Below, one piece after another: positions 12,313 to 55,392 of a DNA stretch of 64,000 nucleotides. This DNA comes from Desulfobacula sp. (lineage in GTDB: Bacteria; Desulfobacterota; Desulfobacteria; Desulfobacterales; Desulfobacteraceae): contig JABGOU010000014.1 in NCBI GenBank assembly GCA_018645325.1, positions 1-64,000 on the forward strand. The letters run 5' to 3'. Both the position numbers and the translations under genes were made by a program. The stretch's first letter is position 1. Each line of letters opens with the position of its first letter. The notes under the pieces were generated by a model. It saw nothing but the letters and a program-made list of their open reading frames with translations. It made no database searches and was not told where the DNA came from.

Positions 12313-12341
12313 ATCATTCCCAAATTAATGTTACATTAAAA

Positions 12342-12477
12342 GCAATTATTCAGCTCTTACGCTTGAAACCGCCCTGTCTGATGGATATTTGTTTCGAGGT
12401 TATTCGCTTAACCTCCTGCAAATATCCATCAGACAGGGCTTTGAGGATAACTTTTTTTTAAAGGGCTGAACAATTAC
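12342..12477 (-). mobile_element. Palindromic MITE, copy 1 (inverted)
   Basis: 136 bp. The terminal inverted repeats are GCAATTATTCAGC at the left and GCTGAACAATTAC at the right. The 21-bp inverted arms start with GCCCTGTCTGATGGATATTT. Between them GAGGTTA...TAACCTC makes a further stem. It is flanked by a perfect 8-bp duplication, CATTAAAA at 12334-12341 and 12478-12485. It lies inside the catabolic operon between the ligase and acyl-CoA dehydrogenase genes, so the transcript would carry a long hairpin there. Confidence 0.9.
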
Positions 12478-12611
12478 CATTAAAATTTGATTATTTTTAC
12501 AGAGGATTTATTTTTTTCGTTCTGCCATAATATCTTTTTTAAAAACACATTTAAGGCCACCACTATGGTTCCGATCTTTTGGACGGCAAGATTAAAAAAA
12601 CATTTTCAGAC

Positions 12612-14246
12612 TTAGCCGTCCGCTCTTCTGGCTTCCTCACTTCTGATTTCCCGGCGAAGCAATTTGCCAACTTTTGATTTTGGCAGCATATCCCTAAATT
12701 CTATATATTGTGGAATTTTATAAGATACCAAAGTTTTCCTGCACCATTTTATCAGCTCATATCCCGTGATACCTTTAATATCTTCTTTTAATACTACGTA
12801 GGCCTTAATCCTTTCCCCGACCTTTTCGTCGGGAACTCCTATAACACATGTGCCTATAACAGCAGGATGCTCCTGCAGCACTGATTCAATTTCCGATGCA
12901 GACACTCGATATCCTTTATGTTTTATGGTGTCCACAGTTCTGTCCACAAAATACAGGTTCCCGTCTTCATCCATTTTCATTATATCAGCTGTTCGATACC
13001 AGGTCTTGCCATTTATCGTGACAAAGGATTTTTGGGTCTCCTCTTTTTTATTCAAATAGGATGTAACCATTTCTTTGGAATGCACAAGCAGTTCTCCTGG
13101 ATCACCTGGCTTTTGAGGATTCATCACAGGATCCACAATCATTATTTTTTTACTGGGAACAAGCCGTCCAACGCTTTTTGGAGGGTTTTCAATATCCACA
13201 GGACACATCACAACTCCACCGCAGGTCTCTGTTGCCCCATACCCCTGGTAAATGCATTTTCCAAATTTCTCCTGCCACCTGCGCCCTACTTCCACGGGCA
13301 GCACATCTCCTGCACTATACCAATAGTCTACAGAACTTAAGTCATATTGATCCAGGCGGTCATGCTCCAGCATCATCCGGTAAAGCGCTGGAACCCCGAT
13401 CATGGATCGCACTTTGAAACGATAAATCGCTTCAAAAGTGGCATCCATATTAATTTTAGGCTGTACCAATAAAGCGCCACCAACAAGTAGGGTTGCAAGA
13501 CTGCAGGTCTGCCCCAATATATGAAAAAGAGGGGCATTCCCTAAAATAATATTTTCCGAAGGAGGAATGATGGGCTCACTTGTTAGAATCTGTTCTATTG
13601 CTGAAACAAGGAACAAGGCGTGGGACATGGGAACGCCTTTTGGAAATTTTGTTGTTCCGCCTGTATATAATATCTGTGCTGTTTTATCTGGGTCATCCTC
13701 TAAAGGTGGAAGATTTGGCTCTTTATATTTGGACAAGAGTCTTTTTAATGAATATATATGTTCTCCCGTGGCCACATTCCCTTTTGGTATAATATTATAA
13801 AGTCTGCCAAAGGTCTGTTTCCAAAAGGGTAAAAGATCTCCCATCCTGACATAAATGGTTCTTTTAATCCCAGTGGTTCCCAGCACCTTTTGAACATAGC
13901 CAAAGTTGGTATCTGCACAAATGATAACAGATACAGAACTATCATTGGCAATATAATCCAGATCATGGGGGGTGTAGATAGGCGTAATGGGAACACACAC
14001 GCAACCGATTCTCTGAACAGCTAAAAAACTAACCACCCATTGAATACTGTTGGGAATGTAAATCATTATCTTATCACCGGATTTTACATCTAAATCCAAT
14101 AATGCCGCTGCAAATTTTTCAGCCATTACCTTTAAGCTATGATAGGAGAATTTCGTTCCAAGGTAAATCACAGCCGTCTTTTCAGGATATTGATCGGCTA
14201 TAGAATTAAACGCTGAAAATATATTGTTTTCTTTTAAGATTTTCAT
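12612..14246 (-). CDS. Acyl-CoA synthetase (AMP-forming carboxylate-CoA ligase)
   Basis: 544 residues of the ANL superfamily. It activates a carboxylic acid to its acyl-CoA through an acyl-adenylate. The ATP loop is ILYTGGTTKFPKGVPMSH (about 192-209), A5 is YGATETCGG and A7 is YRTADIMKMDEDGNLYFVDR. A8 is KHKGYRVSASEIESVL. The C-terminal catalytic Lys is in KSKVGKLLRRE. It resembles long/medium-chain fatty acid ligases and could equally be an aryl-acid ligase. The start is three bases after the LivF stop, so it is co-transcribed with the importer. This links uptake directly to activation of the imported acid. Confidence 0.88.
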   Translation of the reverse strand: MKILKENNIFSAFNSIADQYPEKTAVIYLGTKFSYHSLKVMAEKFAAALLDLDVKSGDKIMIYIPNSIQWVVSFLAVQRIGCVCVPITPIYTPHDLDYIANDSSVSVIICADTNFGYVQKVLGTTGIKRTIYVRMGDLLPFWKQTFGRLYNIIPKGNVATGEHIYSLKRLLSKYKEPNLPPLEDDPDKTAQILYTGGTTKFPKGVPMSHALFLVSAIEQILTSEPIIPPSENIILGNAPLFHILGQTCSLATLLVGGALLVQPKINMDATFEAIYRFKVRSMIGVPALYRMMLEHDRLDQYDLSSVDYWYSAGDVLPVEVGRRWQEKFGKCIYQGYGATETCGGVVMCPVDIENPPKSVGRLVPSKKIMIVDPVMNPQKPGDPGELLVHSKEMVTSYLNKKEETQKSFVTINGKTWYRTADIMKMDEDGNLYFVDRTVDTIKHKGYRVSASEIESVLQEHPAVIGTCVIGVPDEKVGERIKAYVVLKEDIKGITGYELIKWCRKTLVSYKIPQYIEFRDMLPKSKVGKLLRREIRSEEARRADG

Positions 14247-14249
14247 GGC

Positions 14250-14996
14250 TCAGACTCCAAAATATGCAGCTTTGATTTCAGGATTGTTCATTAATTCTTC
14301 ACCAGTCCCGGAAAGGGACAGCATTCCGTTTTCCACAACATATCCCTTATCAATCATAGGAAGAACAGGACGTGCAAATTGCTCACTTAAAATAACGGTA
14401 ATTCCACTGGATTTGTTTAAGGCCTTGATGGCATCCACCACACTTTTTTGCATGATCGGACTTAATCCCAAAAGTGGTTCATCTAAAAGCAACAATTCAG
14501 GCTGAACAATCAATGCCATACCAATCGCAAGCATTTGCTGTTCTCCGCCGCTTAAAAATCCAGCTTTTCTTTTTTTGAGTTTGATTAAAGCAGGGAAGAG
14601 TTCAAAAACATATTGCATTGTCTTTTTAATTTCTTTTCGGGTTCTTAAATATCCTGCAATTTTCATGTTTTCCAAAACACTGGATTCCGGAAATATAGGA
14701 TGCCGTTCTCTTGATAAAACGATTCCCATTTTAACCCTTTCTTCAGGTTTCAAATAGGTGATATCCTCATTTTTATATAAAACCTTGCCATACACGGAAA
14801 TTCTTTCCCCGCCGCGTCTTTTTTCTTTTATCTGCATGTCGATTATAAGACCTGACAAGGTATTCATAAGGGTTGTTTTCCCGGCAGAATTGGAGCCGAT
14901 AATCCCCACAATTTCACCTTTGTTCACGGTGAGATTCAACCCATTTACGGCCAGTGCATTCTCGAAAAAAACCATTAATTCTTTAACTTCAAGCAT
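14250..14996 (-). CDS. livF: Branched-chain amino acid-type ABC transporter ATP-binding protein LivF
   Basis: 248 residues, an ATPase of a HAAT-family importer. Walker A is GSNSAGKT (about 33-40). The signature is FLSGGEQQMLAIGMAL and Walker B is LLLLDEPLLGLSP. The LivF-typical region SRERHPIFPESSVLENM is present. It lies on the cytoplasmic face of the LivHM permease as partner of LivG, 15 bases upstream. The ligase follows three bases downstream. Importers of this family carry not only branched amino acids but also aromatic and dicarboxylic acids, and the context here favours a carboxylic acid substrate. Confidence 0.9.
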   Translation of the reverse strand: MLEVKELMVFFENALAVNGLNLTVNKGEIVGIIGSNSAGKTTLMNTLSGLIIDMQIKEKRRGGERISVYGKVLYKNEDITYLKPEERVKMGIVLSRERHPIFPESSVLENMKIAGYLRTRKEIKKTMQYVFELFPALIKLKKRKAGFLSGGEQQMLAIGMALIVQPELLLLDEPLLGLSPIMQKSVVDAIKALNKSSGITVILSEQFARPVLPMIDKGYVVENGMLSLSGTGEELMNNPEIKAAYFGV

Positions 14997-15011
14997 TTTT
15001 TTTCTCCGGGT

Positions 15012-15764
15012 TTACGCCTCGGTTCCAAGATAGGCGTTTTTGACATCATCGTTTGCCATTACTTCCTTTGCAGAACCATCTGCGATTTTCTCTCCATAAT
15101 TAAGAACTATGACTCTATCCGCAATTTTAAACAATTCTTTTAAACGATGCTCGATCATGATGATTGCTATTCCCTTTTGCCGCAGCTTCTCAACAATAGG
15201 GACAATACTTGCAACTTCTGCAAGACTCAGTCCTGAGAAAAGCTCATCTAAAATCATAAGTTCGGGCTGAAGAGAGATAGCCTTGGCCAGTTCCAGGCGT
15301 TTTAAATATCCCTGGGGTAAGATTCCTGCAGGCTTATAGGCCACAAAGGAATCTCTTTCAAATCCTACTTCCTCCAGCAAATCCAAGGCCATTGCATCAC
15401 GATCTCCATATTTTCCACCAACGAAATTTTTAACCCTGGGGGAATATAAAGGAATAATCATATTTTTATAGGCTGGAAGCTTATAAAACGGCCTTACCAT
15501 TTGAAATGTTCTTGAAATACCCAGGCGAATAATTTTATGTGGTGGAAGGTGGTTAATTTTTTCACCATGAAACATCACCTCACCCGAGGTTGCCTTGACA
15601 AACCTTGTGATCAGATTCACTATCGTGGTCTTACCGGAACCATTAGGGCCTATTACGCCTAATAATTCTCCCGGCTTTATATCAAAGCTTACATTTCTAA
15701 CAGCCTGAACCCCGCCAAAGGATTTACTGATATTGATCACTTTTAAAAGTTTGGTCTGATTCAT
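15012..15764 (-). CDS. livG: Branched-chain amino acid-type ABC transporter ATP-binding protein LivG
   Basis: 250 residues. Walker A is GPNGSGKTTIVNLI (about 36-49) and Walker B is ELMILDELFSGLS. The ABC signature position reads PQGYLKRLELAKA, where LSxGQ is usual; the Ser and first Gly are replaced (ILPQGYLKR), a variation seen in some LivG-like subunits. The C-terminal part contains EHRLKELFKIADRVIVLNYG, typical of LivG. The ATG overlaps the LivM stop by four bases (ATGA), so translation is probably coupled. It pairs with LivF to energise the LivHM channel. Confidence 0.9.
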   Translation of the reverse strand: MNQTKLLKVINISKSFGGVQAVRNVSFDIKPGELLGVIGPNGSGKTTIVNLITRFVKATSGEVMFHGEKINHLPPHKIIRLGISRTFQMVRPFYKLPAYKNMIIPLYSPRVKNFVGGKYGDRDAMALDLLEEVGFERDSFVAYKPAGILPQGYLKRLELAKAISLQPELMILDELFSGLSLAEVASIVPIVEKLRQKGIAIIMIEHRLKELFKIADRVIVLNYGEKIADGSAKEVMANDDVKNAYLGTEA

Positions 15765-16765
15765 TTGTCCACCTCAACCCATCTTTCAAATTGGTTGTAT
15801 TTGCGTTGAACATAATGGAAAATACCTTCAGGTAATGCCACAGTAAAAACCACCAGGAAAAGACCATAGAACACAATTCTCAATCCTCCGAATCCTCTCA
15901 GCACTTCAGATAATGGAACCAGTATGCATGCGCCCAAAGTTGCACCGGCAAGTGTTCCAGGACCTCCCACAACCACTGCTGCTATTGGAAGTATGGAATA
16001 ATCAAGGGCAAAAACAGGCATGCCGACAAACATATATATATGGGTCATAAAAGCACCGGCAAAAGCACCAATGGAACTTGAAATAAAAAGTGCCTGGGTC
16101 TTATACCAGTAAATATTAATCCCTGCATTAGTTACGGACCGATCATTATCACGAATCCCTTTTAGAACCAGTCCGAAGTCAGAATCCAGCATTCTTCTAA
16201 ACCCGAAAAGTGCAATCAACATGACACCAATAATCAGATAAAGTTCAATCCAATGGGAAGGAAGAGGCGACATTCCGCTAAGCCCTTCAGTTCCCCCGAA
16301 TATCTTGGTTGCCTCGATTACCCTGACCATCATCAAAGGAATGATCAGGGTGACCATGGAAAAATAAATCCCCCTAAGCCTTAAAACAGGCAATAACATC
16401 AAGGTACATACCAATCCCCCCATTATTGTTGCCAAAGGAATTGAAATAAAGGGGTGAAATCCGAAATAATGGTTCAGGATACCCGTAATATATGCCCCTA
16501 TTCCAAAAAAAAGCGCCTGGCCCAGGGACACCATTCCGCTTTCAGCAAGGATATCCCAGCTGATCGCTAAAAGCACAAAAACAACAGCCGAAAGAAGTAC
16601 TTTCTGCCAGTAAACCCCAATAACAAGGGGCAAAATTAAAAATCCCAGGATCGGAATTAAACGGGGTGCTGAAAGATAAAGCATTTCTCTATAGGAACAA
16701 AGCGCAAAAATATCCTGAGATCTTGCTTTTATGCCCCGATCAATTCTTTCTTTTCTTTTTTCCAA
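15761..16765 (-). CDS. livM: Branched-chain amino acid-type ABC transporter permease LivM
   Basis: 334 residues with about nine hydrophobic segments. The N-terminal 45 residues are charged and cytoplasmic (MEKRKERIDRGIKARSQD). Family landmarks are ISWDILAESGMVSLGQALFFGIGAY, FGGTEGLSGM and VVVGGPGTLAGATLGACILVPLSEVLR. It forms the inner-membrane channel with LivH. It starts four bases after the LivH stop and its end overlaps livG. The long charged N-terminus is ordinary for LivM. Substrate range cannot be read from the sequence. Confidence 0.9.
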   Translation of the reverse strand: MEKRKERIDRGIKARSQDIFALCSYREMLYLSAPRLIPILGFLILPLVIGVYWQKVLLSAVVFVLLAISWDILAESGMVSLGQALFFGIGAYITGILNHYFGFHPFISIPLATIMGGLVCTLMLLPVLRLRGIYFSMVTLIIPLMMVRVIEATKIFGGTEGLSGMSPLPSHWIELYLIIGVMLIALFGFRRMLDSDFGLVLKGIRDNDRSVTNAGINIYWYKTQALFISSSIGAFAGAFMTHIYMFVGMPVFALDYSILPIAAVVVGGPGTLAGATLGACILVPLSEVLRGFGGLRIVFYGLFLVVFTVALPEGIFHYVQRKYNQFERWVEVDK

Positions 16766-16769
16766 TGAT

Positions 16770-17642
16770 CTATATCCTTTCTTCTAGTTCTTTTTGCTTT
16801 CCAAAAAGCCCGGAAGGCTTAACAACAAGTACAATCAGAATGGCTGCTAAACTGACTATCATGGTCCAGTGTGATCCTATGTAGGAATCTGTAAAACGTT
16901 CCGCAAACCCAATTAAAAAACTGGCCACAATAACCCCTCCCGTACTGCCAAGTCCCCCTATGATGCACACGGCAAGCGCCTTGATCAGGACATCATACCC
17001 TTCTGAAGGGAAAATACTGCCAAGTGGGATAATAATGGATGCGGCAATGGCGGCAAAACCCGCCCCCAAAGCTACTGCCAATGTGGCAATTTTATCTGAA
17101 TCTATACCAAAGGTAAGAGCGGTCCGTTCATCTTGAGCAATACCTCTGAAAGCAAGTCCAAGAGAGGTGTTGTGGGTAAAAAGCCAAAGGAGCACGACAA
17201 TGATAACACCAAGAACCACAATTAGAATCCTCTGCATATCAACATAGGTTCCCAATATCATATAGCTTGAATCTATAAAAGGCGGGAGATTATATTCAAA
17301 TCCCACGAATCCTAAATATCTGAATAATTCCAATATGGCCAGACCGATTCCAAATGTGGCAATGACCTCTGAAATAGCCTGGCCTCTCACACGCTTGAGA
17401 ACCAATTGGTACATGAGGGCTCCCAAAGCCATTGTGAGAATTATGGAAATCATCACAGAAACAAAATAAGGCAGATGAAATGAATGCATCATAATCCATG
17501 TGGAATAGGCGGAAAGGATATAAAAGGCACCATAGGCGAAATTAGCAACGCCGCTGATACCAAATGTCAGGTTAAAGCCAATGGCGATTAAGGTTAGTAT
17601 GACACTATTGATCAGTGCGTAAATAATCGTACCGGTAAACAT
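16770..17642 (-). CDS. livH: Branched-chain amino acid-type ABC transporter permease LivH
   Basis: 290 residues from ATG 17642, which has GGAG eight bases upstream and gives the standard LivH length. An in-frame start 39 bases further up adds MDGIIHLRNGEKS and is less likely. About eight membrane segments are present. Family landmarks are FNLTFGISGVANFAYGAFY near the start, RGIAQDERTALTFGID in the cytoplasmic coupling loop and GGLGSTGGVIVASFLIGF near the end. It forms the permease with LivM. It lies 204 bases after the binding-protein gene, with a stem-loop between them. Confidence 0.9.
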   Translation of the reverse strand: MFTGTIIYALINSVILTLIAIGFNLTFGISGVANFAYGAFYILSAYSTWIMMHSFHLPYFVSVMISIILTMALGALMYQLVLKRVRGQAISEVIATFGIGLAILELFRYLGFVGFEYNLPPFIDSSYMILGTYVDMQRILIVVLGVIIVVLLWLFTHNTSLGLAFRGIAQDERTALTFGIDSDKIATLAVALGAGFAAIAASIIIPLGSIFPSEGYDVLIKALAVCIIGGLGSTGGVIVASFLIGFAERFTDSYIGSHWTMIVSLAAILIVLVVKPSGLFGKQKELEERI

Positions 17643-17738
17643 CGATTTTTCTCCATTTCTCAAATGAATGATGCCATCCATTAAAATCTGATGGGTTATC
17701 TTTGAAACTATTAAATTTTGGTTTATCGGAGTTGTTTT

Positions 17739-17803
17739 AGGTGGCCTGAAAAAATAAGATTGTTTATTGCAAACTTATTACAAGCTTTATTTCCCGGCCA
17801 CCT
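17739..17803 (-). other. Stem-loop between livK and livH
   Basis: AGGTGGCC (17739-17746) and GGCCACCT (17796-17803) are perfect inverted repeats about 50 bases apart, with smaller pairings inside. In the transcript no U-run follows, so it is not an evident terminator. It may protect the 3' end of the livK message so that more binding protein than permease is made. That role is inferred from the position only. Confidence 0.4.
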
Positions 17804-17846
17804 TAAGTTTTTCAAGTTAATAAAAGCCTTAACAAAAAACAGGTCT

Positions 17847-19130
17847 CTAGTTCTGAACCGCTTTAAGCCCTTTTGGAAGCTTAATTTCTCCTTCAGCAAC
17901 AGATGGTGGAAAAACAATGGTCCTGTTTCCATCTTCACCCCACTGAAATACAGCTGCCACTGCAGCTTTTGAAGGATCCATATCATAAACAGCCTGATGC
18001 CCTGCATCAAACTTAACCCTTCCCATTACGCCTTCTCGATTTGTTTTTTCAAGTTCTGCCACAATGGCATCGGCATCAACACTGTCTGCACGTTCAATGG
18101 CCTCTGCAAGTAGATATACTGATTCATAGGAAGGAGCTGGACCATGGCCTGCTTCCAGTTTACTTCCCCATCTTTTTTCATAGGATTCAACAAATGCTGC
18201 TGCCTTTGGCATTTTTGCTGAAGAAATCGCACTTCCCATCTCAAAATTTACATTGATGGCACCGGCTATTTTTTTATCAAAGGTATTCCAGGCGCCGGGG
18301 CCTGCAAGAGGAGAGATAAATCCGGCCAAAAGACTTGGAATTTTCATGCTGTTCCATTGTTTAACAAGAGTACCGCTTTGGGGCATATCAAATATTGGCA
18401 GAATGACCTGGGCCCCTTTTGCTTTTGCTTTCATAAGTGCAGAGGAGAAATCTGAAGTACCTGTTGGAAAACTTTCTTGTCCCACAACTTCCCATCCGGC
18501 TTTCGCAAAATAGACCTTGTTTGTAATTTCAGCTGTTTTTCTTGCCCAGGCAACGTCCTGATTCATAATATAAACTTTGTTAAACCCATATTGTTTTTTA
18601 ATAAACCCCATGGTACCAGCCAGATATTTAACCAGATATTTTGCATTGAGACAGGATCTGAATATGTATTTATATTTTTCAGGGTCTTTTTTAATTTTTC
18701 CCTCGGATGCTGGAGACATGGCGATTGTACCGATTAAGGGTACTTTGTATTTGGCGATAATATCCATGCCTGCCATTAAAGCTTCTGATCGAAAAGGCCC
18801 TACAATTAAAGCTGTGGGTTTTTTCTCCAGAATAATTTTTTCCAGGCCTAAAAGAGCTTCAGGAACGGGTACTCCAGGAGCAGCATCCCTTATATCTATT
18901 GATTCCACTTTGAATATTCTATTATCGTTTCCTACTTTTACGCCACCTTTTTTGTTTATTTCTTCAACAGCCATTTCGACTGATTTAAGGCATTCTTTTC
19001 CTTCTAAAAAGCCGGTTGAGGTGGGAACTCCAATAACTATCGGATCAGCCGCCCATATACCTGGTACAAAAAGAAAACATAGTACGATAACCTGTATCAT
19101 GCATACTGTAAAAAATTTTCTCGTTCTCAT
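17847..19130 (-). CDS. livK: ABC transporter substrate-binding protein, LivK type
   Basis: 427 residues, periplasmic. The signal peptide is residues 1-27 (MRTRKFFTVCMIQVIVLCFL..., cleavage after IWA). The mature part starts with DPIVIGVPTSTGFLEG, the first strand of a type I periplasmic-binding fold (Peripla_BP_6). Further features are PTALIVGPFRSEALM and YIMNQDVAWARKTAEI at the lobe hinges. AGGAGG stands seven bases before ATG 19130. As first gene of the importer it probably defines the substrate, but the binding residues do not identify it. Upstream (19131-19354) is a 224-base gap that could hold the transporter promoter. The two-component genes precede it. Confidence 0.9.
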   Translation of the reverse strand: MRTRKFFTVCMIQVIVLCFLFVPGIWAADPIVIGVPTSTGFLEGKECLKSVEMAVEEINKKGGVKVGNDNRIFKVESIDIRDAAPGVPVPEALLGLEKIILEKKPTALIVGPFRSEALMAGMDIIAKYKVPLIGTIAMSPASEGKIKKDPEKYKYIFRSCLNAKYLVKYLAGTMGFIKKQYGFNKVYIMNQDVAWARKTAEITNKVYFAKAGWEVVGQESFPTGTSDFSSALMKAKAKGAQVILPIFDMPQSGTLVKQWNSMKIPSLLAGFISPLAGPGAWNTFDKKIAGAINVNFEMGSAISSAKMPKAAAFVESYEKRWGSKLEAGHGPAPSYESVYLLAEAIERADSVDADAIVAELEKTNREGVMGRVKFDAGHQAVYDMDPSKAAVAAVFQWGEDGNRTIVFPPSVAEGEIKLPKGLKAVQN

Positions 19131-19354
19131 GGTGATGCCTCCTTGTTACGGGTTAGAATATTGAATTGCTTATTAAAATAGCACTTAAAAAGAAAATGCC
19201 TGTTCTGTAAGTTAGTCTGTAAGTTAGAAAGATAAATAAAATATGTAAATCAGTAATGTCACTAAAAAAACATAGGCAAATCACCTAGTGTCCTTAAGAT
19301 CAAGCATAACAAGACATGATTATACATTATTTTAAAAAAAGTACTAATGAAAAA

Positions 19355-20011: not shown

Positions 20012-20062
20012 AGGTGTATCAATCCTTATTTCATACAGCTATATCATATAAAAATGGCCATA

Positions 20063-23357: not shown

Positions 23358-23491
23358 GTAATTGTTCAGCCCGTTAAAAAAAGTTATCTCCAAAGCCCTG
23401 TCTGATGGATATTTGTAGGAAGTGAACCCTTAGCATCGAAATAAATATCCATCAGACAGGGCGGTTTCAAACGTAAGAGCTGAATAATTAC
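23358..23491 (+). mobile_element. Palindromic MITE, copy 2
   Basis: 134 bp with GTAATTGTTCAGCCC at the left end and AGCTGAATAATTAC at the right, and the 21-bp inverted arms. The loop is diverged from the other copies (it contains AAGTGAACCCTTAGCATC). The flanking 8-mers AAATTTAT and AAATTGAT match at 7 of 8 positions, suggesting an older insertion. It lies between divergent genes (mce to the left, a GGDEF gene to the right). The rest of the 23141-23612 gap shows no gene. Confidence 0.9.
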
Positions 23492-25346: not shown

Positions 25347-25370
25347 AATAAAAAAGGGGTGTTTTAAATA

Positions 25371-25625: not shown

Positions 25626-25673
25626 AACACCCTTTTTTAATAATTATTTTCGTCCATTATTCAAATAAATATT

Positions 25674-25806
25674 GTAATTGTTCAGCCCGTAAAAAAGTTA
25701 TCCCAAAAGCCCTGTCTGATGGATATTTGCAGGAGGTTAAGCGAATAGCCTCGAAACAAATATCCATCAGACAGGGCGGTTTCAATCATAAGAGCTGAAT
25801 AATTAC
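25674..25806 (+). mobile_element. Palindromic MITE, copy 3
   Basis: 133 bp with intact arms and terminal repeats. It is flanked by a perfect 8-bp duplication, TAAATATT at 25666-25673 and 25807-25814. It lies between the glutaredoxin start and the end of the Bat operon. Confidence 0.92.
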
Positions 25807-25845
25807 TAAATATTTTATGAAACTCAATGCTCTATTGTCATAATC

Positions 25846-33557: not shown

Positions 33558-33662
33558 ATTCTTTTATGCCCTTATCCTATAAATTTTACCCATGACAAAA
33601 ATATAATTTTTGATAAATATAATATTTCAAAATAAAGTGTCAAGACATGAAACAAGCAAGGC

Positions 33663-33752
33663 AGGGCAATCGCATGTAGTTTCCTTATGATTCGTCCATA
33701 CCCGTTCAGACCAGTTTACCTTTCCATCGCCGACTGGAACTAATTGACAGGC
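33663..33752. repeat. Diverged direct repeat, copy A (flanks tetR)
   Basis: About 90 bases, roughly 78% alike by eye to 34600-34689 and in the same orientation. The minus strand reads in both copies as GKVNxSERVWxNHK followed by TCD, so both come from one protein-coding ancestor. The surrounding gap 33558-33884 has no other gene; a 79-codon minus-strand frame here is the remnant itself. Confidence 0.6.
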
Positions 33753-34502: not shown

Positions 34503-34599
34503 TAATATCCTACCTTTTCCAAGTATTTATGATTGATTGAATAATCTTTTTGACTTATCATTTGTTCAGCCATCTGACAAGGAAAAAACTTTTCTATAC

Positions 34600-34689
34600 A
34601 GGGTAATCGCATGTAATTTTTTTGTGATTACTCCATACCCGTTCAGATCGGTTTACCTTTCCTTCGCTGGATGGGACATGTTGACAGGC
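34600..34689. repeat. Diverged direct repeat, copy B (flanks tetR)
   Basis: Partner of 33663-33752. The minus-strand reading is ACQHVPSSEGKVNRSERVWS in part. It lies upstream of tetR in the 34503-34938 gap, which otherwise holds only the fourth palindromic element and the likely tetR promoter. Confidence 0.6.
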
Positions 34690-34768
34690 TCTATGTCGGG
34701 CTACACTTGTGGCGGAAAAACTGTCACAGATATTGACGCTTCTTCTCAAAATTGATACAAATAAATTT

Positions 34769-34903
34769 GTAATTGTTCAGCCCGTTAAAAAAAGTTATCC
34801 CCAAAGCCCTGTCTGATGGATATTTGCAGGAGGTTAAGCGAATAGCCTCGAAACAAATATCCATCAGACAGGGCGGGTTCAAGCGTAAGAGCTGAATAAT
34901 TAC
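34769..34903 (+). mobile_element. Palindromic MITE, copy 4
   Basis: 135 bp, the best-preserved type. Its arms are perfect over 21 bp around a 27-base loop. A perfect 8-bp duplication, ATAAATTT, lies at 34761-34768 and 34904-34911. It lies 35 bases upstream of the Cys-rich small ORF. Confidence 0.92.
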
Positions 34904-34938
34904 ATAAATTTTAACTTTTTATTTGAAAATATTTTGCC

Positions 34939-42731: not shown

Positions 42732-42758
42732 ACGCGCCTCATAAAAGTTTAATAATTT

Positions 42759-42892
42759 GTAATTATTCAGCTCTTACGCTTGAGCCTGCCCTGTCTGATG
42801 GATATTTGTTTCGATGCTAAACGCTTAACCTTTTGCAAATATCCATCAGACAGGACTTTGGGGATAATTTTTTTAACGGGCTGAACAATTAC
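42759..42892 (-). mobile_element. Palindromic MITE, copy 5 (inverted)
   Basis: 134 bp with arms differing at one base. A perfect 8-bp duplication, AATAATTT, lies at 42751-42758 and 42893-42900. It lies between the sco and coxA genes, just before the coxA ribosome site, so it may separate or modulate the two transcription units. Confidence 0.92.
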
Positions 42893-42952
42893 AATAATTT
42901 TTAATATCGGCAGTTTGAGCAATTATTATGTATCATGAGACAATTTTGTCTT

Positions 42953-44358: not shown

Positions 44359-44373
44359 AATGTTTTCTCCTTC

Positions 44374-45823: not shown

Positions 45824-45869
45824 TGCCTGACCTTGCATCAGGACAAACCAAAAAGAAAGACTTTATTTT

Positions 45870-46469: not shown

Positions 46470-46478
46470 AATATCTTT

Positions 46479-46613
46479 GTAATTGTTCAGCCCGTTAAAA
46501 AAAATTATCCCCAAAGCCCTGTCTGATGGATATTTGCAGGAGGTTAAGCAAATAGCCTCGAAACAAATATCCATCAGACAGGGCGGGTTCAAGCGCAAGA
46601 GCTGAATAATTAC
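46479..46613 (+). mobile_element. Palindromic MITE, copy 6
   Basis: 135 bp, nearly identical to copy 4. A perfect 8-bp duplication, ATATCTTT, lies at 46471-46478 and 46614-46621. It lies just after the MocA-like gene stop and may act as its transcript end. The 46614-46818 gap to the next gene holds no gene. Confidence 0.92.
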
Positions 46614-46818
46614 ATATCTTTTATATTAAGGACTGCTAATGATTGCGATCCTGACTTCCCTGGAATTTAATGCTTGACTTGGACTGTTTATTCTCATAAA
46701 AAAAACTGTGGCAGCGATAAACCTGTTTAGTTTGTAGGTAATGCATATTCTTTGAATATGTTTTAATATTTCCAATGAGTTTTAACCCCATAACTCTAAC
46801 CACAAACAAGGAGGGCCT

Positions 46819-48192: not shown

Positions 48193-48201
48193 TTAAATTG
48201 G

Positions 48202-48248
48202 CAAACCCGGATCTGCTTTTTTTAAGTATAAATCAGTATCCGGGTTTG
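48202..48248 (+). terminator. Candidate terminator after trpB2
   Basis: CAAACCCGGAT (48202-48212) and ATCCGGGTTTG (48238-48248) pair perfectly over 11 bp around a 25-base loop. TTTGTTTT follows. It starts nine bases after the stop codon. It may also serve the convergent aminotransferase gene. Confidence 0.6.
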
Positions 48249-48278
48249 TTTGTTTTAAATAGGGTCATTAAATTAGGG

Positions 48279-48322
48279 TCAGGTTTGCGTTTTAGGGTTA
48301 TTATTAAATAACGCAAACCTGA
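48279..48322. repeat. REP-like hairpin
   Basis: TCAGGTTTGCGTT (48279-48291) and AACGCAAACCTGA (48310-48322) form a perfect 13-bp stem around an 18-base loop, preceded by ATTAGGG. It lies between convergent genes. The form resembles REP elements handled by RAYT transposases, but I saw only this copy in the window. Confidence 0.45.
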
Positions 48323-48350
48323 TCTTTACGAACCCGCTTTAACTCCCTGT

Positions 48351-49523
48351 TTATTTCACAGCATCATAGGCTTTTTTGAATCTTTCCAAAGATCCTTTTA
48401 TAGTTTTGTCCGGCACGGCATAAGAAAGCCTGAAATGGCCGGGGCCACCAAAAGCTATTCCCGGAACAGCAAGGATATTGTGTTCTTGTAAGATATCCAC
48501 AAATTTAACGTCATTTTCAATTGGGCTTTTCGGAAACAGATAAAATGCACCTTCCGGCACGTCAAATTCATAGCCTGCCGCATGAAGTCCTTTGCAAAAC
48601 ATATCCCGCCTTTTTCTATAAATGTTGATATCCACTGTAACGCCCTGAAGCATACCAACAACCTGCTGAAAAAGGGCCGGAGCATTCACATACATCATGG
48701 TATTGGTGACCCCTGCAGCCCCTGCAATCATTTGGGCATCTTCTGCTTTGGGATGAATGGCAAGATAGCCGATTCTCTCTCCTGCAAGCGACAATTCCTT
48801 GGAATAAGAAGTCAGCACAATAGTATGGGGATAAACGTCAAACATGGACGGAACCTCAACATCATAGACAATCTTTCGGTAAGGTTCATCGGAAATCAGA
48901 TAAATCCGCTTCCCGAATTTTACGCTGGCTGCATCAAGAATCTTTCCTAACCCCAACAGCTCCTCTCTTGTGTAAACTACTCCAGTGGGGTTGTTGGGTG
49001 AATTAACCAGCATCACCCGGGTATTTTTAGTAATGGCCTTTTCAATGGCATCAAGGTCCAGATGAAAATCAGAAAATGATGCCACAGTTTTTAAATTTGC
49101 ACTTGCAACAAAGGCATACTGATTATAGCCCACAAAATAAGGTGCCGGCGTAAGGATATCCTCTCCCGGGTTTAACAGAGCTCTCAAGGTATCATTCAAA
49201 GCTCCTGCCGCACCCGCAGTCATCACAATAAGGTCTGAACTAAGCCCGACATTGTATTCTTTATTCAAATAATCCGCCACTGCCTGTCTGACATGGGGAT
49301 ATCCCGGGTTAGGCATATACCCGTGGGAAGTAGTTTTGTCGTTTATAAGTTCCATAAGGGCATTTTTTACAGCCGCTGGTGGTGGAACATCCGGATTTCC
49401 CAGTGAAAAATCAAATACATTATCAGCTCCATATTTTTCTCTCATTCTGATCCCTTCTTCAAACATCTTCCGGATCATGGAGGCGGCTTCAACCATTTTA
49501 ACCATCTTATCTGCAATAGGCAT
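48351..49523 (-). CDS. PLP-dependent aminotransferase, class I/II
   Basis: 390 residues. A fold-type I aminotransferase: FSLGNPDVPPP near the N-terminus, GAAGALNDTLRALLNPGED, VNSPNNPTGVVY, ISDEPYRKIVYD and PLP Lys in TSYSKELSLAGERIGYL. The substrate-carboxylate Arg is in GHFRLSYAVP near the C-terminus. It resembles aspartate/aromatic aminotransferases of subgroup I-gamma; the donor is not determinable. AAGGAA precedes ATG 49523. It is transcribed alone. Confidence 0.88.
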   Translation of the reverse strand: MPIADKMVKMVEAASMIRKMFEEGIRMREKYGADNVFDFSLGNPDVPPPAAVKNALMELINDKTTSHGYMPNPGYPHVRQAVADYLNKEYNVGLSSDLIVMTAGAAGALNDTLRALLNPGEDILTPAPYFVGYNQYAFVASANLKTVASFSDFHLDLDAIEKAITKNTRVMLVNSPNNPTGVVYTREELLGLGKILDAASVKFGKRIYLISDEPYRKIVYDVEVPSMFDVYPHTIVLTSYSKELSLAGERIGYLAIHPKAEDAQMIAGAAGVTNTMMYVNAPALFQQVVGMLQGVTVDINIYRKRRDMFCKGLHAAGYEFDVPEGAFYLFPKSPIENDVKFVDILQEHNILAVPGIAFGGPGHFRLSYAVPDKTIKGSLERFKKAYDAVK

Positions 49524-49577
49524 AAAAATTTCCTTTTATATTAAAATTTAAAATTATCTTACCATACATCAAATTTT

Positions 49578-50159
49578 TCATGATGAAAACACTCCTTTAA
49601 AAAAGGGGCTACCGCTTTTTTGAATACACGCTTTCATCTCAATTACATATTGTGGTCTTACCTCATTTTTCCAACGTGGATACCCGCCCTTCCATACATA
49701 CCGAATCAGTTCATGGAATACAGCTTTATCAAAATAATATCTGCCGATTTTTATTCTGCCATCCTTATAAATCTCAATTGAAATATCTCTTATTACTGAA
49801 AAGGGTTCAATATGCGATATCACAATGTCTCTTGTATCAAATCCATCCGGGTTCTGCTTAAACGCTTGTGGGTCATCTGGAAAAGGAAATATAGTATACA
49901 ATTTTCCAATAAACCCGGTAAACCTTATTCCATGGATGGCTCCCATCAAATCTCCAACAGCATTGGGATCAGATATATGATATACGGTGCGGTCAAACGT
50001 TTTTACATGGGAATCATCTTCTTTTGCCATCTTATTTACCCACCTGCAAAAATCCTCTGCGAAAAAAAAATAATTTTCCAGCAGCAGCATATCCGACTCA
50101 ATATTAAAAAAACCAAAAGCGATATTTCCATGGCTCTGGGATCTAAACGATAATGGCAT
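49578..50159 (-). CDS. Conserved hypothetical protein
   Basis: 193 residues from ATG 50159, which has AAGGAG eight bases upstream. The frame extends 16 codons further but that start lacks a ribosome site. It is soluble, with no signal or membrane segment. The sequence starts MPLSFRSQSHGNIAFGFFNIESDMLLLE and is rich in aromatic residues (ENYFFFAEDFCRWV; YVWKGGYPRWK). I do not recognise the family. It lies upstream of the aminotransferase on the same strand (54 bases), so the two could share a transcript. No role is proposed. Confidence 0.7.
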   Translation of the reverse strand: MPLSFRSQSHGNIAFGFFNIESDMLLLENYFFFAEDFCRWVNKMAKEDDSHVKTFDRTVYHISDPNAVGDLMGAIHGIRFTGFIGKLYTIFPFPDDPQAFKQNPDGFDTRDIVISHIEPFSVIRDISIEIYKDGRIKIGRYYFDKAVFHELIRYVWKGGYPRWKNEVRPQYVIEMKACIQKSGSPFFKGVFSS

Positions 50160-50310
50160 AAATCTTCTCCTTTTTGTTGATGGCAATCCTTGTTTCAAAT
50201 AGCCCAATTGTACACAATTTTAAAAAAATCTCAAACCCGGTTTTTCTTTAACTTGACGCTGATCTGCAAATCTAATATCCATATATATTAAATATAAAGG
50301 ACGAAACCCA

Positions 50311-51294
50311 ATGAAAAAAAAAATACTGGTATCCAGATTATACCCAAAAGAAGGGATCAGACTCCTGGAAAAAGAAAATTTTCATCTCACCTTATGGGAA
50401 GAAAAAAGGCCAATGACCCAAGTTGAGCTTATTGAGAAGGCAAAGAGCCATCATGCCCTTTTGTGCACCCTCACCGAAAAAATAGATAGTCATTTTTTAA
50501 CCCAGTGCAGCCACCTTGAGATCATCTCTCAATTTGCCGTGGGGTATGATAATATCGATATTGATGCGGCCACAGGTTTTGGTATTCCTGTGGGGTTTAC
50601 TCCGGATGCTATGAGCGAAGCCACTGCAGATATTGCCTTTGGTCTTATGATCGCTGTTGCAAGGAAAATGTTTTTTCTGCATAAAACCATTATCAACGGC
50701 CGGTGGGGGTATTTCAATCCCACTGGGAATCTTGGTTTTGAGTTGAAAGATAAAACCTTAGGAATCTTCGGACTTGGCCGTATTGGAGTTAAAATGGCCA
50801 AGCGATGTAAAAATGCCTATGATATGGATATTATTTATCATAACAGGACACGCAATAAAGAGGCTGAAAAACTTCTTGATGCAACCTATTTGGGATTTGA
50901 CGACCTTCTTTTAAAAAGCGATGTCCTGTCGGTTCATTGTGCCCTGACACCTGAAACAAAAGAAATATTTAACCGGTCTGCCTTTAAAAAAATGAAACCA
51001 TCAGCAATCTTCATTAACACTGCAAGAGGACCCATCCACAATGAAAAAGATCTGAGTTCCGCCATAAGCTCAGGCGAAATCTGGGGGACGGGCCTGGATG
51101 TGACAAACCCAGAACCTATGCAGCCTGATAATGCTCTTCTCTTCATGGAAAATGCCTGTGTCCTTCCCCATGTGGGATCAGGAACACAGGAGGCCAGAAA
51201 TCAGATGTCTGTGCTGGCAGCCATGAATATAATTGAATTCTACCGGAACAAACAGGTCCCTCATATTGTCAATCCAGAGGTGCTGGCGCACTGA
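50311..51294 (+). CDS. D-isomer-specific 2-hydroxyacid dehydrogenase (glyoxylate/hydroxypyruvate reductase-like)
   Basis: 327 residues. The NAD(P) loop is LGIFGLGRIGVKMAKR (about 150-165), followed by YHNRTRN, whose Asn-Arg-Thr-Arg suggests NADPH preference. Active-site residues are Arg in INTARGPIHNE, Glu in DVTNPEPM and His in VLPHVGSGT. It reduces a 2-keto acid such as glyoxylate or hydroxypyruvate to the D-hydroxy acid. AAAGGA precedes ATG 50311. It is monocistronic, divergent from the hypothetical gene to the left. Confidence 0.88.
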   Translation: MKKKILVSRLYPKEGIRLLEKENFHLTLWEEKRPMTQVELIEKAKSHHALLCTLTEKIDSHFLTQCSHLEIISQFAVGYDNIDIDAATGFGIPVGFTPDAMSEATADIAFGLMIAVARKMFFLHKTIINGRWGYFNPTGNLGFELKDKTLGIFGLGRIGVKMAKRCKNAYDMDIIYHNRTRNKEAEKLLDATYLGFDDLLLKSDVLSVHCALTPETKEIFNRSAFKKMKPSAIFINTARGPIHNEKDLSSAISSGEIWGTGLDVTNPEPMQPDNALLFMENACVLPHVGSGTQEARNQMSVLAAMNIIEFYRNKQVPHIVNPEVLAH

Positions 51295-51336
51295 TTCACT
51301 AAAAAAAGGTCATGCTTTTTTTTTGCATCAATGATT

Positions 51337-51603
51337 TTATTTTAATCCCAGGTTATCCAGAAAATGTCTGTGTTTCACCCGATATAGATTTTTGTCTTCC
51401 TTAACCAGATAAAAAAACCGCTTGTTGTCATCATCGCAGCACTCAAACAAACCAGTATAATCCTGCTGATCAACGACATCACAGATACGAGACACATCAT
51501 CATTGAATTTTTCACAAACGGATACCCAGTCTTCCTCTTTGGCACCCTTTTTAATTGTAATTTTTTTGGATAGTTTTTCAAATTCCGCCTGGATGGATTT
51601 CAT
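51337..51603 (-). CDS. Small hypothetical protein
   Basis: 88 residues, with GGGGGAG six bases before ATG 51603, so it is very likely translated. It is charged and mostly helical (MKSIQAEFEKLSKKITIKK), then has a Cys-containing acidic stretch (LFECCDDDNKRFFYLVKED). The family is not recognised. It lies 45 bases after the GGDEF gene on the same strand and may be co-transcribed with it. No function is inferred. Confidence 0.6.
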   Translation of the reverse strand: MKSIQAEFEKLSKKITIKKGAKEEDWVSVCEKFNDDVSRICDVVDQQDYTGLFECCDDDNKRFFYLVKEDKNLYRVKHRHFLDNLGLK

Positions 51604-51648
51604 TATTTCTCCCCCAAACCTTTTAATATTTGAATAAAAATTAAAGTT

Positions 51649-53379
51649 TTAATCGGCAAAAGCCAGTTGATTACGCCCGTTTTCCTTAGCCCTGTATAAG
51701 GCTGCATCAGCCCTTGCAATCATTGCATCTGCTGTCTCATCTCCTCTTCTGCTTGTAATACCGATACTGATTGTGATACTTATCTTTCCTGCTCTTGTTA
51801 CCATTTTTTGATCGGCTGTTATTGCCCGCACACGTTCATAGATTTTTTCTTCAACCATTCCAATAGAATCTGGTAAATCAGGTATAACTAATAAGAACTC
51901 TTCTCCACCGTATCGTCCAACCATGTCATAAGGCCTGAGGGTTTTCTGGATAATTTTAACGAAATTGAATAGGACATCGTCACCCGCCTGGTGGCCATAC
52001 TTGTCATTGACATGCTTAAAGTGATCAATATCGCATATGCCAATGCTCAGTTTCAGGTTCCCTCTTTTAGCTCGGAGCAATTCATTTCTCAGCCTGTCTA
52101 AAATGGCACCCCGGTTCGGAGCTCCTGTTAAAGAGTCATGTGTGGCCTTGTGTTCAAGCTTTATGTTCAGTAATCTCAATTCATTTCTAATCTGTTTCTG
52201 CTCGGTGATGTCTTTTAAAATTACAACCAGCTTTGATATTTTACCATTTATATCTTTTATACAAGATGAGCTTATGATGACATCTATGCTGCGGCCTTTC
52301 TTTGTCAGCCTTTTACTTTCAAATTGTACTTTCTTCCCCGAGCTCAGCAACTCTTTTACTTTTTCAGAAGTTATCTTTTTTTGATCATCAGGAACAAAGG
52401 GGATACGCTTTCCTTCCAATTCATCCAAAGACCACCCGAATAGTTTAATAAAAGCCGGATTAAGATACTCTGTCCCACCCTGGTTATTATATATTGCAAT
52501 TGGATCCGGAGTTGCAGACAGGATGGTCTTTAATCCTTCTTCACTCTCCTTCAGTGCTTCCTCGGTTTGTTTACGCGCTGATATATCATTTACCAATGAT
52601 GCCATGCCTATATTCTTACCATCGGCATCCTGCAGGACTGTATTATACCAATCACAGATAATTCGCCTGCCTTTCTTAGTTATATTCTCGTTTATACTGT
52701 GGGTGCCTCCTTTTTCCGATAATATATCCTGGAAAATGTCCTCAACAATTTCTTTGCTATCTTCAGTAAGGATGAGATCTGCAATATGTTTGCCCAATGC
52801 CTCTTCTTTAGTATAGCCGAATATATTTTCAGCGGCAGGGTTCCACTCAATAGTTTTGAAATTCAAGTCCCATGAAATTGCTCCAATCGGTGTATTTAAA
52901 AGATGGGTGGAAAGTTGCTGCTCACTCTTTTGCAAAGCCTCCTGGGCATTCTTGAACTGGGTAATATTGCGAATTATTGATAAAATGAAGTCCTCGCCAT
53001 TGATTTGCATTAGATGGGCGGATAACAGACCCACCACGATCCGTCCACCTTTGCAGATAAACCGGGCCTCCATATTGTCTACATAGCCGGTCTTTGCCAA
53101 ACTATTGATCAGGCGGTTCCTGTCTTCAGGGTTTGCCCACATATTTAAAGAAAGAGAAGTTTTTCCTATGACATCGTCCTGCTTATATCCCATGATTTTG
53201 GTAAAACCATGGTTGACATTTATAAACATTCCGTCAGAAGCCCTGCTGATATTAATCGCATCAGGGCTTGTTTGAAACGCTAATTTATATCGTTCTTCGT
53301 TCTCCCGAGCCTTTTTATCAGATTGTTCCAGCTTCTGAATTTTTTTTTCTAATTCTTCATAAGTCGGTTTTTGAATCAT
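51649..53379 (-). CDS. PAS-PAS-PAS-GGDEF diguanylate cyclase, paralogue of 23613-25346
   Basis: 576 residues. A coiled start (MIQKPTYEELEKKIQKLEQ) is followed by PAS domains at about 25-145, 150-270 and 285-400. The GGDEF domain (about 415-576) has active site GRYGGEEFLLV and I-site RPYD. Metal Asp is in CDIDHFKHVND. The last PAS and the GGDEF domain are nearly the same as in the protein at 23613-25346 (shared: FGWSLDELEGK, PFVPDDQK, RSIDVIISSSCIK). The first two PAS domains differ. AGAGG precedes ATG 53379. It makes cyclic di-GMP; the signal is unknown. Confidence 0.88.
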   Translation of the reverse strand: MIQKPTYEELEKKIQKLEQSDKKARENEERYKLAFQTSPDAINISRASDGMFINVNHGFTKIMGYKQDDVIGKTSLSLNMWANPEDRNRLINSLAKTGYVDNMEARFICKGGRIVVGLLSAHLMQINGEDFILSIIRNITQFKNAQEALQKSEQQLSTHLLNTPIGAISWDLNFKTIEWNPAAENIFGYTKEEALGKHIADLILTEDSKEIVEDIFQDILSEKGGTHSINENITKKGRRIICDWYNTVLQDADGKNIGMASLVNDISARKQTEEALKESEEGLKTILSATPDPIAIYNNQGGTEYLNPAFIKLFGWSLDELEGKRIPFVPDDQKKITSEKVKELLSSGKKVQFESKRLTKKGRSIDVIISSSCIKDINGKISKLVVILKDITEQKQIRNELRLLNIKLEHKATHDSLTGAPNRGAILDRLRNELLRAKRGNLKLSIGICDIDHFKHVNDKYGHQAGDDVLFNFVKIIQKTLRPYDMVGRYGGEEFLLVIPDLPDSIGMVEEKIYERVRAITADQKMVTRAGKISITISIGITSRRGDETADAMIARADAALYRAKENGRNQLAFAD

Positions 53380-53512
53380 ATGAAGCCTCTTTTAAATATG
53401 AGATTAAGCTTTGGGAGCAAAATATTTATCATATCCACCACACTCCCAAATCAAAAAACCACTTGAAAACATTTTATATCCGGGACTTTCTCAATAAAAA
53501 TCACAATAGTAC

Positions 53513-53815
53513 ATGTTATTCAATAAAGTAAATAAATTTTTACTTATAAAATTGCTTGCCGAACTGATTAATAGTTTTGGAAAAAATCTTCTATTGGTAA
53601 CCGGAGGTCGGTCTTTTAAAGATACCAGTCAATACAGATGGCTTTTGAATGCCCTTAAAAACAACTCTGCTAAAATATATTGTTATTCCATCTCATCAGA
53701 GCCATCACCCGACATGATTGATGAAATAGTTCGGATATATCAAGAGAAAAATATTCATGTTGTCGTTGCCGTTGCCGTTGCCGTTGGTCGCGGCAGTGTT
53801 ATAGATGCTGGGAAA
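53513..53815 (+). pseudogene. Iron-containing alcohol dehydrogenase, N-terminal remnant
   Basis: About 101 codons match the N-terminal Rossmann part of Fe-ADH proteins: ELINSFGKNLLLVTGGRSF, SEPSPDMIDEIVRIY and GSVIDAGK, the NAD-binding site. The family normally has about 380 residues. Here homology ends at IDAGKK and the frame runs into the Sel1 gene's 3' end. The site VVVAIGGGS has become VVVAVAVAVGRGS through a GTTGCC hexamer repeated three times (53765-53782), adding four residues. One glycine is also replaced by Arg. It is a decayed fragment; the rest is missing. Confidence 0.7.
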
Positions 53816-53856
53816 AAACGTCTTAATAAATATTTTAAAATCCAGGCTTTAAAGAT

Positions 53857-55299
53857 TTATTTTATAGTACTAATATGTTGCCGGATTGTTTCTTCTATGG
53901 CCCGGGCTTCTTCCAATTGTTGAGGTGATAATTTTTTAAGGAGAATATATCTGTCCTTAATAGCCTGTTCATGACCTTGTTCTGCGGCTAAGCTGCCCCA
54001 CACATAGGCAAGTTTATAATCTTTAGTAACACCTGAACCGTTATAATACATACTCCCGAGAATGAATTGAGCTGCAGCATCACCCTGTTCAGCAGCTTTT
54101 TTGTACCAGTAGAAGGCCTTTTTATCATCCTTTGGCACCCCTTTGCCTTTAGAATAAAGAATCCCAAGATTAATCTGAGCGCTGAGATTATCCTGTCTGG
54201 CAGCTTTCCAATACCAGTATGCCGCCTTTTTATCATCCTTTGGCACCCCTTTGCCTTTGGAATACAGAAGCCCGAGATTGAACTGAGCCGCAGCATTTCC
54301 CTGTTCAGCGGCCTTTTCATACCAGTATGCCGCCTGTGTATCGTCTTTTGGCACCCCTTTTCCTTTAAGAAACATATATCCAAGATTTGCTTGAGAGTCT
54401 GCTTTCCCGTGTTCAAGTGCTTTTTTGTACCAGTATGATGCCAGTTTTTCATCCCGGGGCACTCCCATGCCTTTAGAATGCATGATTCCAAGATTGAATT
54501 GAGCACTGACATTCCCCTGATCAGCAGCTTTTTTGTACCAGTATGCCGCCTTTTTATCATCCCTTGGCACCCCTTTGCCTTTGGAATACAAAATCCCAAG
54601 ATTAAACTGAGCCGCAGCATCTCCCTGATCAGCTGCTTTTTTATGCCAGAAGGCGGCCAGCTTATCGTCCTTGGGCAGCCTTTTGCCTTTAGGATATATA
54701 ACCCTGAGATCATCGGGAATAACCGGGTTTACCGGGTCAGCTACTTTCTCTTTAACCAATGTTTCAGGCTTAACAGGTATTTTCCTTTGCTCAGGTGATT
54801 TTTTCTCAATAGATACATTCTTTTGCTCAGAAGGTTTCCTTTGTTCGACTATTTGTTTTAGTTCATATTTTTTCTGTTGTTCAGGCAATTTCTCTTTTTC
54901 ACCTGTTCTCTTCTGTTCAGATGTTTTCTTCTGTAAAACCGCATTGGTCAATTCAGGTAATTTTCCCCTAACCTGTACTTTTCTTTTAAGATTCGCCTTT
55001 TTTTTAAGATTTACTTTTCTCTTAAGGGTTGCTCTTTTCTTAACCAGCCTTTTTTGGGTTTCCCCGGAAGGGAAAATTTTACCGGGGGCTAATTCAGGGC
55101 CCATCAATTTTATACCGGTCTTTTGCAGCCTAAAAGAAAAGCTGTTTACTTTGTCAGGACTTGTGTTCTTGCCTTTTTGCATAGGCTTGTCCTGGTAATT
55201 GCTGAAATGATGGGTTCCGTTTTCAACCCAATGATAAAATTGTGCATATGCAATGCAGGGAAAAAATAAAAAAAGGATAAATAAAACTATATTTTTCAT
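53857..55299 (-). CDS. Secreted Sel1-repeat protein with DUF4124-like N-terminus
   Basis: 480 residues. The signal peptide is 1-19 (ending CIAYA). A short DUF4124-like motif follows (FYHWVENGTHHFSNYQDKP). Residues 85-190 are a Lys/Arg/Gln-rich linker with internal repeats (LKRKVNLKKKANLKRKV). From about 205 on there are six full 36-residue Sel1 repeats and a partial seventh, each of the form AAYWYKKAADQGNxxAQFNL then SKGKGVPKDD. At DNA level they are a 108-bp tandem repeat (about 54070-54700). Sel1 solenoids bind partner proteins. It is exported to the periplasm; the partner is unknown. Repeat number may vary between strains. Confidence 0.87.
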   Translation of the reverse strand: MKNIVLFILFLFFPCIAYAQFYHWVENGTHHFSNYQDKPMQKGKNTSPDKVNSFSFRLQKTGIKLMGPELAPGKIFPSGETQKRLVKKRATLKRKVNLKKKANLKRKVQVRGKLPELTNAVLQKKTSEQKRTGEKEKLPEQQKKYELKQIVEQRKPSEQKNVSIEKKSPEQRKIPVKPETLVKEKVADPVNPVIPDDLRVIYPKGKRLPKDDKLAAFWHKKAADQGDAAAQFNLGILYSKGKGVPRDDKKAAYWYKKAADQGNVSAQFNLGIMHSKGMGVPRDEKLASYWYKKALEHGKADSQANLGYMFLKGKGVPKDDTQAAYWYEKAAEQGNAAAQFNLGLLYSKGKGVPKDDKKAAYWYWKAARQDNLSAQINLGILYSKGKGVPKDDKKAFYWYKKAAEQGDAAAQFILGSMYYNGSGVTKDYKLAYVWGSLAAEQGHEQAIKDRYILLKKLSPQQLEEARAIEETIRQHISTIK

Positions 55300-55334
55300 A
55301 ACCTGTCTTTAATTTTATAAACCATTATTATTTT

Positions 55335-55392
55335 GTAATTGTTCAGCCCGTTAAAAAAAATCATCTCCAAAGCCCTGTCTGATGGATATTTG
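55335..55392 (+). mobile_element. Palindromic MITE, copy 7 (truncated)
   Basis: Only the left 58 bases remain: GTAATTGTTCAGCCC, the A-rich spacer and the first arm up to GATATTTG. The loop, second arm and right terminus are gone. What follows is the 3' end of the glpR gene, so a deletion joined the element to it. No target duplication partner is found. Confidence 0.85.

Follow-up and report, generated by a model that had tools for sequence, protein, structure and literature searches.

A palindromic MITE family in Desulfobacula that shares its ends with ISBst12-like elements of the IS66 family

A palindromic miniature inverted-repeat transposable element (MITE) is present in six complete copies, each 133-136 bp long, and as a single left half of 58 bp in the first 64,000 nucleotides of contig JABGOU010000014.1 of the marine sulfate reducer Desulfobacula sp. 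(GenBank assembly GCA_018645325.1), a stretch referred to below, at its full length, as the window (G000:C46:1-64000). The window carries a small part of the whole family, which is dispersed in the same draft genome (G000; 4,385,846 bases in 157 contigs, or 4.39 Mb) and in two other Desulfobacula genomes. These copies very probably constitute a non-autonomous MITE family of IS66, belonging to the ISBst12-like group with a single open reading frame (ORF) and moved in trans by an ISBst12-like transposase. The family is new, of a familiar kind. In the proposed mechanism, an ISBst12-like DDE transposase would recognise the 13-bp ends GTAATTGTTCAGC / GTAAYTATTCAGC in trans and insert the element into a palindromic A/T target with an 8-bp stagger, the repair of which would leave an 8-bp target-site duplication (TSD). 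Successive waves would have produced an older subfamily (GTAACTATTCAGC) and a younger one (GTAATTATTCAGC), the burst having used an element since lost or unassembled; the parent would be an IS66 ORF framed by the ends GTAATTGTTCAGCC / GTAATTATTCAGCT. Labels such as L111 and L219 denote individual loci.

All seven copy positions proposed in a first-pass annotation of the window, made from the sequence alone, were recovered, together with its five perfect 8-bp duplications, the single 7/8 duplication and the truncated copy, which is a left half without a right end (Table 1). A left-half probe (58 bases, at most three mismatches) found four matches in the window, compared with a mean of 0.00 over 100 shuffles. 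Two details of that annotation required adjustment. The common terminal repeats are present as inverted repeats, but the left end GTAATTGTTCAGC and the right end GTAATTATTCAGC differ at one of 13 bases and the copy at 12342 starts GCAATT; likewise, the short loop exists, but in the folded copy it contains a further 7-bp stem.

Table 1 MITE copies in the window and component parts of the copy closest to the consensus
Feature	Position	Strand	Remarks
Full MITE copy	12342..12477	-	TSD CATTAAAA at 12334-12341 and 12478-12485
Full MITE copy	23358..23491	+	TSD 7/8: AAATTTAT / AAATTGAT
Full MITE copy	25674..25806	+	TSD TAAATATT at 25666-25673 and 25807-25814
Full MITE copy near family consensus	34769..34903	+	TSD ATAAATTT at 34761-34768 and 34904-34911
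Left terminal inverted repeat of consensus-like copy, GTAATTGTTCAGC	34769..34781	+	
Left arm of internal 21-bp palindrome, GCCCTGTCTGATGGATATTTG	34806..34826	+	
Right arm of internal 21-bp palindrome	34854..34874	+	
Right terminal inverted repeat, GTAATTATTCAGC	34891..34903	-	13/13 identical to outermost bases of IS66 element L111/L159
Full MITE copy	42759..42892	-	TSD AATAATTT at 42751-42758 and 42893-42900
Full MITE copy	46479..46613	+	TSD ATATCTTT at 46471-46478 and 46614-46621
Truncated copy retaining left end, spacer and left arm of palindrome	55335..55392	+	Stops at loop foot; no right end

Throughout the G000 draft, the left end GTAATTGTTCAGCCC with at most one mismatch has 130 matches (72 + 58), while the reversed control has none. 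The stretches read in G000 comprise 650,853 bases (651 kb) selected around matches, and also the window. When searched with a profile, they yielded 120 separate matches, of which 92 are full length; since five pairs of partial matches are the halves of single interrupted or deleted copies, the stretches hold about 115 elements. The family consensus is 135 bp long, with a mean distance of 5.3% over 90 copies, and 89 of the 92 full copies measure 133-138 bp. With at most 46 codons, the element is too short for an IS66 transposase gene and can therefore only be a MITE of that family, not an insertion sequence (IS). TSDs were scored for full copies with both flanks available, using shuffled partners as control, and were found well beyond the window: among 91 such copies in G000, 60 have 8/8 matching bases, 17 have 7/8, 10 have 6/8 and four have fewer, so that 87 reach at least 6/8, compared with a mean of 0.9 and a maximum of 5 perfect TSDs out of 91 for the shuffled partners. 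The 60 perfect duplications represent 54 distinct sequences. Pooled over both strands, these 60 sites define a symmetric target motif, an 8-mer that is A-rich in its left half and T-rich in its right half, preceded by WA and followed by TW at 96-99% A+T, which is written here as WA-AAWWWWTT-TW. Of 88 copies with enough flanking sequence, 41 are flanked by tandem, 21 by divergent and 18 by convergent genes, seven share more than 30 bp with a crude ORF call, and one has no flanking ORF. Copies are located at several contig ends in the Desulfobacula drafts, which implies that the family affects the assembly of these drafts. In two further copies (G000:C67:8985-9051 and C105:16295-16389) both ends are retained and the internal palindrome is largely or partly gone, as expected of unstable palindromes.

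The link to IS66 comes from the ends. A search that looked for inverted repeats flanked by an exact 8-bp TSD, without presetting the end sequence, found convincing ends at 10 of 30 IS66 loci of the bacterial family: six of the GTAAGCG type, two GTAACTACTCAGGC, one GTAAATATTCGGG and one at L111. The last of these belongs to an intact element (L111/L159) in another Desulfobacula genome (G048), 1,759 bp long, with the ends GTAATTATTCAGC / GTAACTATTCAGC, the 8-bp TSD TATAATTT and a single 471-aa ORF matching PF03050 (160 bits) and NF033517 (291 bits). One MITE end is identical to an end of this element at 13 of 13 bases. Judged by its single ORF and its ends alone, L111 appears to belong to the ISBst12 group. 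Used as a query, its protein has matches at E <=1e-30 in 21 genomes out of 291 from the order. A second end search, covering 30 loci from this protein search and restricted to ends starting GTA, identified perfect 8-bp TSDs at 10 loci in seven genomes, all bounding elements of 1.6-1.8 kb with GTAAC/T ends. Of the additional elements or fragments in Desulfobacula, L181 and L190 have the end GTAATTATTCAGC and L189 has GTAATTATTCAGT; IS relatives in other families end in GTAACTATTCAGC, which in Candidatus Desulfobacula maris is the older MITE subfamily's right end. When IS66 ends were scored over 13 bases, each with whichever of three MITE ends fitted it best, 12-13 positions matched for 10 of 11 ISBst12-like ends and 11 for the remaining one, whereas two ends of the classical multi-ORF, GTAAGCG-type IS66 elements matched at just 9 and 6. 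The affiliation with IS66 suggested by the first-pass annotation is thus borne out by an element of the same genus that shares a 13-bp end and the 8-bp TSD, though it holds for the single-ORF ISBst12-like group and not for GTAAGCG-type elements with several ORFs. At position 5 of the right end, the T of the younger MITE subfamily is found in IS elements of the genus itself as well, and the older subfamily has the C of the wider IS group.

Exact GTAATTRTTCAGCYC ends were found in four of 86 genomes of the bacterial family: 182 in G000 (about 90% complete), 34 in Desulfobacula sp. SI073_bin145 (G038; about 81%), two in Candidatus D. maris (G031; about 94%), one of which is a fragment, and one in G015. 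The names of G038 and G031 come from DNA that is identical to records bearing them. The G015 match falls within a long open frame; it was rejected as a MITE copy and taken as a chance occurrence. A scan of a genome collection that may omit the window's own genome placed the palindrome arm in at least 45 stretches, and among the matches listed all were in SI073_bin145 and maris; viral contigs gave no match to the arm. A whole-copy query scored 40 of 61 candidates in SI073_bin145 and 40 of 51 in maris, and nearly all those listed are copies or pieces of copies. In SI073_bin145, 43 elements were gathered, of which 36 are full length and 26 of these have a perfect TSD; the corresponding figures for maris are 27 elements, 20 full length, and perfect TSDs in 15 of 19. 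The commonest ends in maris are GTAATTGTTTAGCCC on the left (6/20) and GTAACTATTCAGCTC on the right (10/20), those in G000 are GTAATTGTTCAGCCC (72/90) and GTAATTATTCAGCTC (52/90), and SI073_bin145 carries both kinds. Right ends of the older subfamily (GTAACTATTCAGC) are commonest in maris and those of the younger (GTAATTATTCAGC) in G000, the succession of waves being one that we infer. Loop types A and B trend in the same way as the end types, yet 26 of 90 copies in G000 have loop type A and 19 of 90 could not be assigned.

Lineage-specific copies are present among the species, and the empty orthologous sites that the first-pass annotation had proposed to look for exist. Two are exact: a copy in SI073_bin145 (L149:3201-3335; AAAATCAT) faces a single AAGATCAT in G000, and a G000 copy in L219, itself interrupted, faces a single TTATTTTT in maris. 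Other sites also lack the copy, but their junctions have diverged. Beside these, at two diverged sites (L221/L249 and L226/L133) the copies of two species agree in target and orientation and have a variant in common, and were therefore inherited. Three G000/SI073_bin145 pairs (L240/L122, L028/L259 and L232/L281) were left out of the shared-site count: their 300-bp flanks are 100% identical, whereas most other orthologous flanks are 79-95% alike, and the pairs may reflect cross-binned contigs or recent transfer.

Several observations weigh against the derivation from an ISBst12-like element. No ISBst12-like transposase was detected in G000, maris or SI073_bin145 with either a protein query (P0001) or the IS66 profile: P0001 had no match in G000 and matches of 28-30% identity alone in the other two, and the profile hits were an interrupted relic in G000 and, in maris and SI073_bin145, four IS66 genes over the cut-off, two of which could be assigned ends (GTAAATATTCGGT at L294 and GTAATCGTTCACGGGG at L292). 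The genome that harbors the best IS, G048, contains no exact MITE ends. In BLAST comparisons of a MITE copy with eight IS66 elements, the terminal 13 bases matched exactly and the other matches were at chance level; because the similarity stops after 13 bases, the MITE is not a visible internal-deletion derivative of the IS. Moreover, an end of another IS66 type, GTAAATATTCGGC of L105 in G036, matches 11 of 13 MITE bases, so the first 13 bases do not fully separate IS66 groups. Some other IS66 group present in a genome that carries the MITE could have moved it, for example the 1,563-bp element L191/L292 of SI073_bin145, which has the 8-bp TSD AAAAAAGG and a left end identical to that of the MITE at 15 of the first 20 positions, or the GTAAATATTCGG elements of maris (L291 and L294), to whose type the L105 end belongs (matching 15/20 over the longer stretch). 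This is quite improbable: the L191 ends match MITE ends at 7-10 of 13 bases compared with up to 13 of 13 for ISBst12-like elements, the CAGC core is absent from the GTAAATATTCGG type, and neither element was found in G000. An ISBst12-like transposase remains the preferred mobiliser, and would have been lost, left unassembled or located elsewhere. Orientation raises a separate question. The window copy at 12342-12477 and L156 1612-1747 of SI073_bin145 occupy the same 8-bp target in opposite orientations, as do L283 and L268, and an in-place inversion at two orthologous targets would account for both. The window copy and L156 differ in loop and right-end subfamily markers, which points to two insertions; for L283/L268 the markers do not decide. 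A target-weighted estimate of about 2,900 effective sites yields 1.8 expected chance coincidences between G000 and SI073_bin145, 1.1 between G000 and maris (none seen) and 0.4 between SI073_bin145 and maris, all rough upper estimates based on crude gene calls, 120 elements counted for G000 and sites assumed conserved. Target preference alone thus suffices for the opposite-orientation sites, and the two diverged sites described above kept one orientation and a shared variant. In-place inversion is therefore ranked behind independent insertion at preferred targets, and we regard it as very improbable. L242/L287 was also considered as an inverted shared site and rejected, its targets being nearby but different.

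The MITE might instead now be a domesticated regulatory or RNA-structure repeat, with its hairpin under selection and its mobility confined to the past. The internal 21-bp palindrome is predicted to form a strong hairpin: the copy at 34769 folds at -65.7 kcal/mol as RNA (z -10.7) and at -32.7 as DNA (z -7.8), and conservation is 97% in the arms, 94% in the loop and 91% in the spacers. On the plus strand, arm-pair changes fall in 98 G-U cells compared with 34 A-C cells, with only four double changes. However, 45 of the 98 G-U cells lie at two pairs that may trace to one founder, and without them the counts are 53 and 34, so that the G-U excess is suggestive at best. Copies between tandem genes show no orientation bias (21 vs 20 of 41 copies) and are not significantly near stops (24/41, p 0.35), the single copy scanned contained no promoter-like or terminator-like site, Rfam gave no matches in the window, and copies specific to one lineage exist. 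Domestication is quite unlikely. In a bolder proposal, an IS66-derived MITE would have outlived its transposase in three Desulfobacula species, the 21-bp hairpin being selected for an RNA or single-strand DNA role of its own, and each wave would need an ISBst12-type IS to enter again from related lineages. We offer this as a speculation with a small chance of being right.

Among known systems, the closest are the ISBst12 group of IS elements (ISBst12 and ISDge4), which share with the MITE the ends GTAAC/T..TCAGC and the 8-bp TSD but contain one transposase ORF, whereas the MITE is a gene-less element of 135 bp with an internal palindrome. According to the sections of PMC12898284 drawn on here, ISDge4 is an ISBst12-group IS reported to transpose, with the ends GTGACTACTCAGCA / GTAACTGCTCAGCA and an 8-bp repeat, and the group is insufficiently characterised. 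MITEAba12 of Acinetobacter, as portrayed in part of PMC6382973, is similar in its size (111-114 bp), its lack of a transposase gene and the ends and TSD length it has in common with an IS; it differs in its 9-bp TSD and its co-resident parent ISAba12, since the Desulfobacula MITE has 8 bp and a co-resident parent was not found. MITEPsy1 of Pseudomonas syringae, likewise a small MITE from a bacterium, has ends close to IS ends, and its movement has been shown, but it is 100 nt long with a 4-nt duplication and ISPsy2-like ends (excerpts of PMC3189936). Chunjie of Geobacter uraniireducens is comparable as a many-copy bacterial MITE, though its full length is 235 bp; the comparison concerns copy number (review PMC10969869). 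The main text of that 2024 review of prokaryotic MITEs does not mention IS66. Limited literature searches (IS66/MITE, ISBst12, Desulfobacula, Desulfobacter and deltaproteobacterial palindromic MITEs), which reached sources in part, returned no description of an IS66-derived MITE. The present family is a high-copy bacterial MITE tied to IS66 by its ends, duplication length and subfamily history, and its symmetric target motif and clean empty sites provide markers for Desulfobacula genome history and for target choice in this IS group.

Two candidates for a parent element in G000 were rejected. The IS66 relic on contig C106 (L033) was dismissed because P0001 has no match in G000; it lies at 3115-3381 and 7754-7915, interrupted by a segment whose three minus-strand ORFs (4248-7480) we take, by eye, to resemble tyrosine recombinases in the recombinase-in-trio style. 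A pair of MITE ends spanning 1,766 bp on C35, considered as an autonomous element, proved to be two broken copies around host DNA.

Other repeats lie inside or near the MITE copies. A second short palindromic repeat in G000 (L219 2543-2700, L226 2271-2427 and L069 18468-18625), with the ends GGGTCCACTCAAAAAT and 3-bp TAA/TTA duplications, sits inside the MITE loop in L219, L226 and, by eye, L074. A dispersed repeat (CAGGGCAATCGCAT...) occurs in the window at 33662-33752 and 34599-34689 (81% alike), and a related sequence adjoins a broken MITE in L064 near 12340-12420 (by eye). The window also contains repeats with a 108-bp period (54012-54743), five of them in register, inside a 480-aa minus-strand ORF (53857-55299) that presumably encodes a repeat protein.

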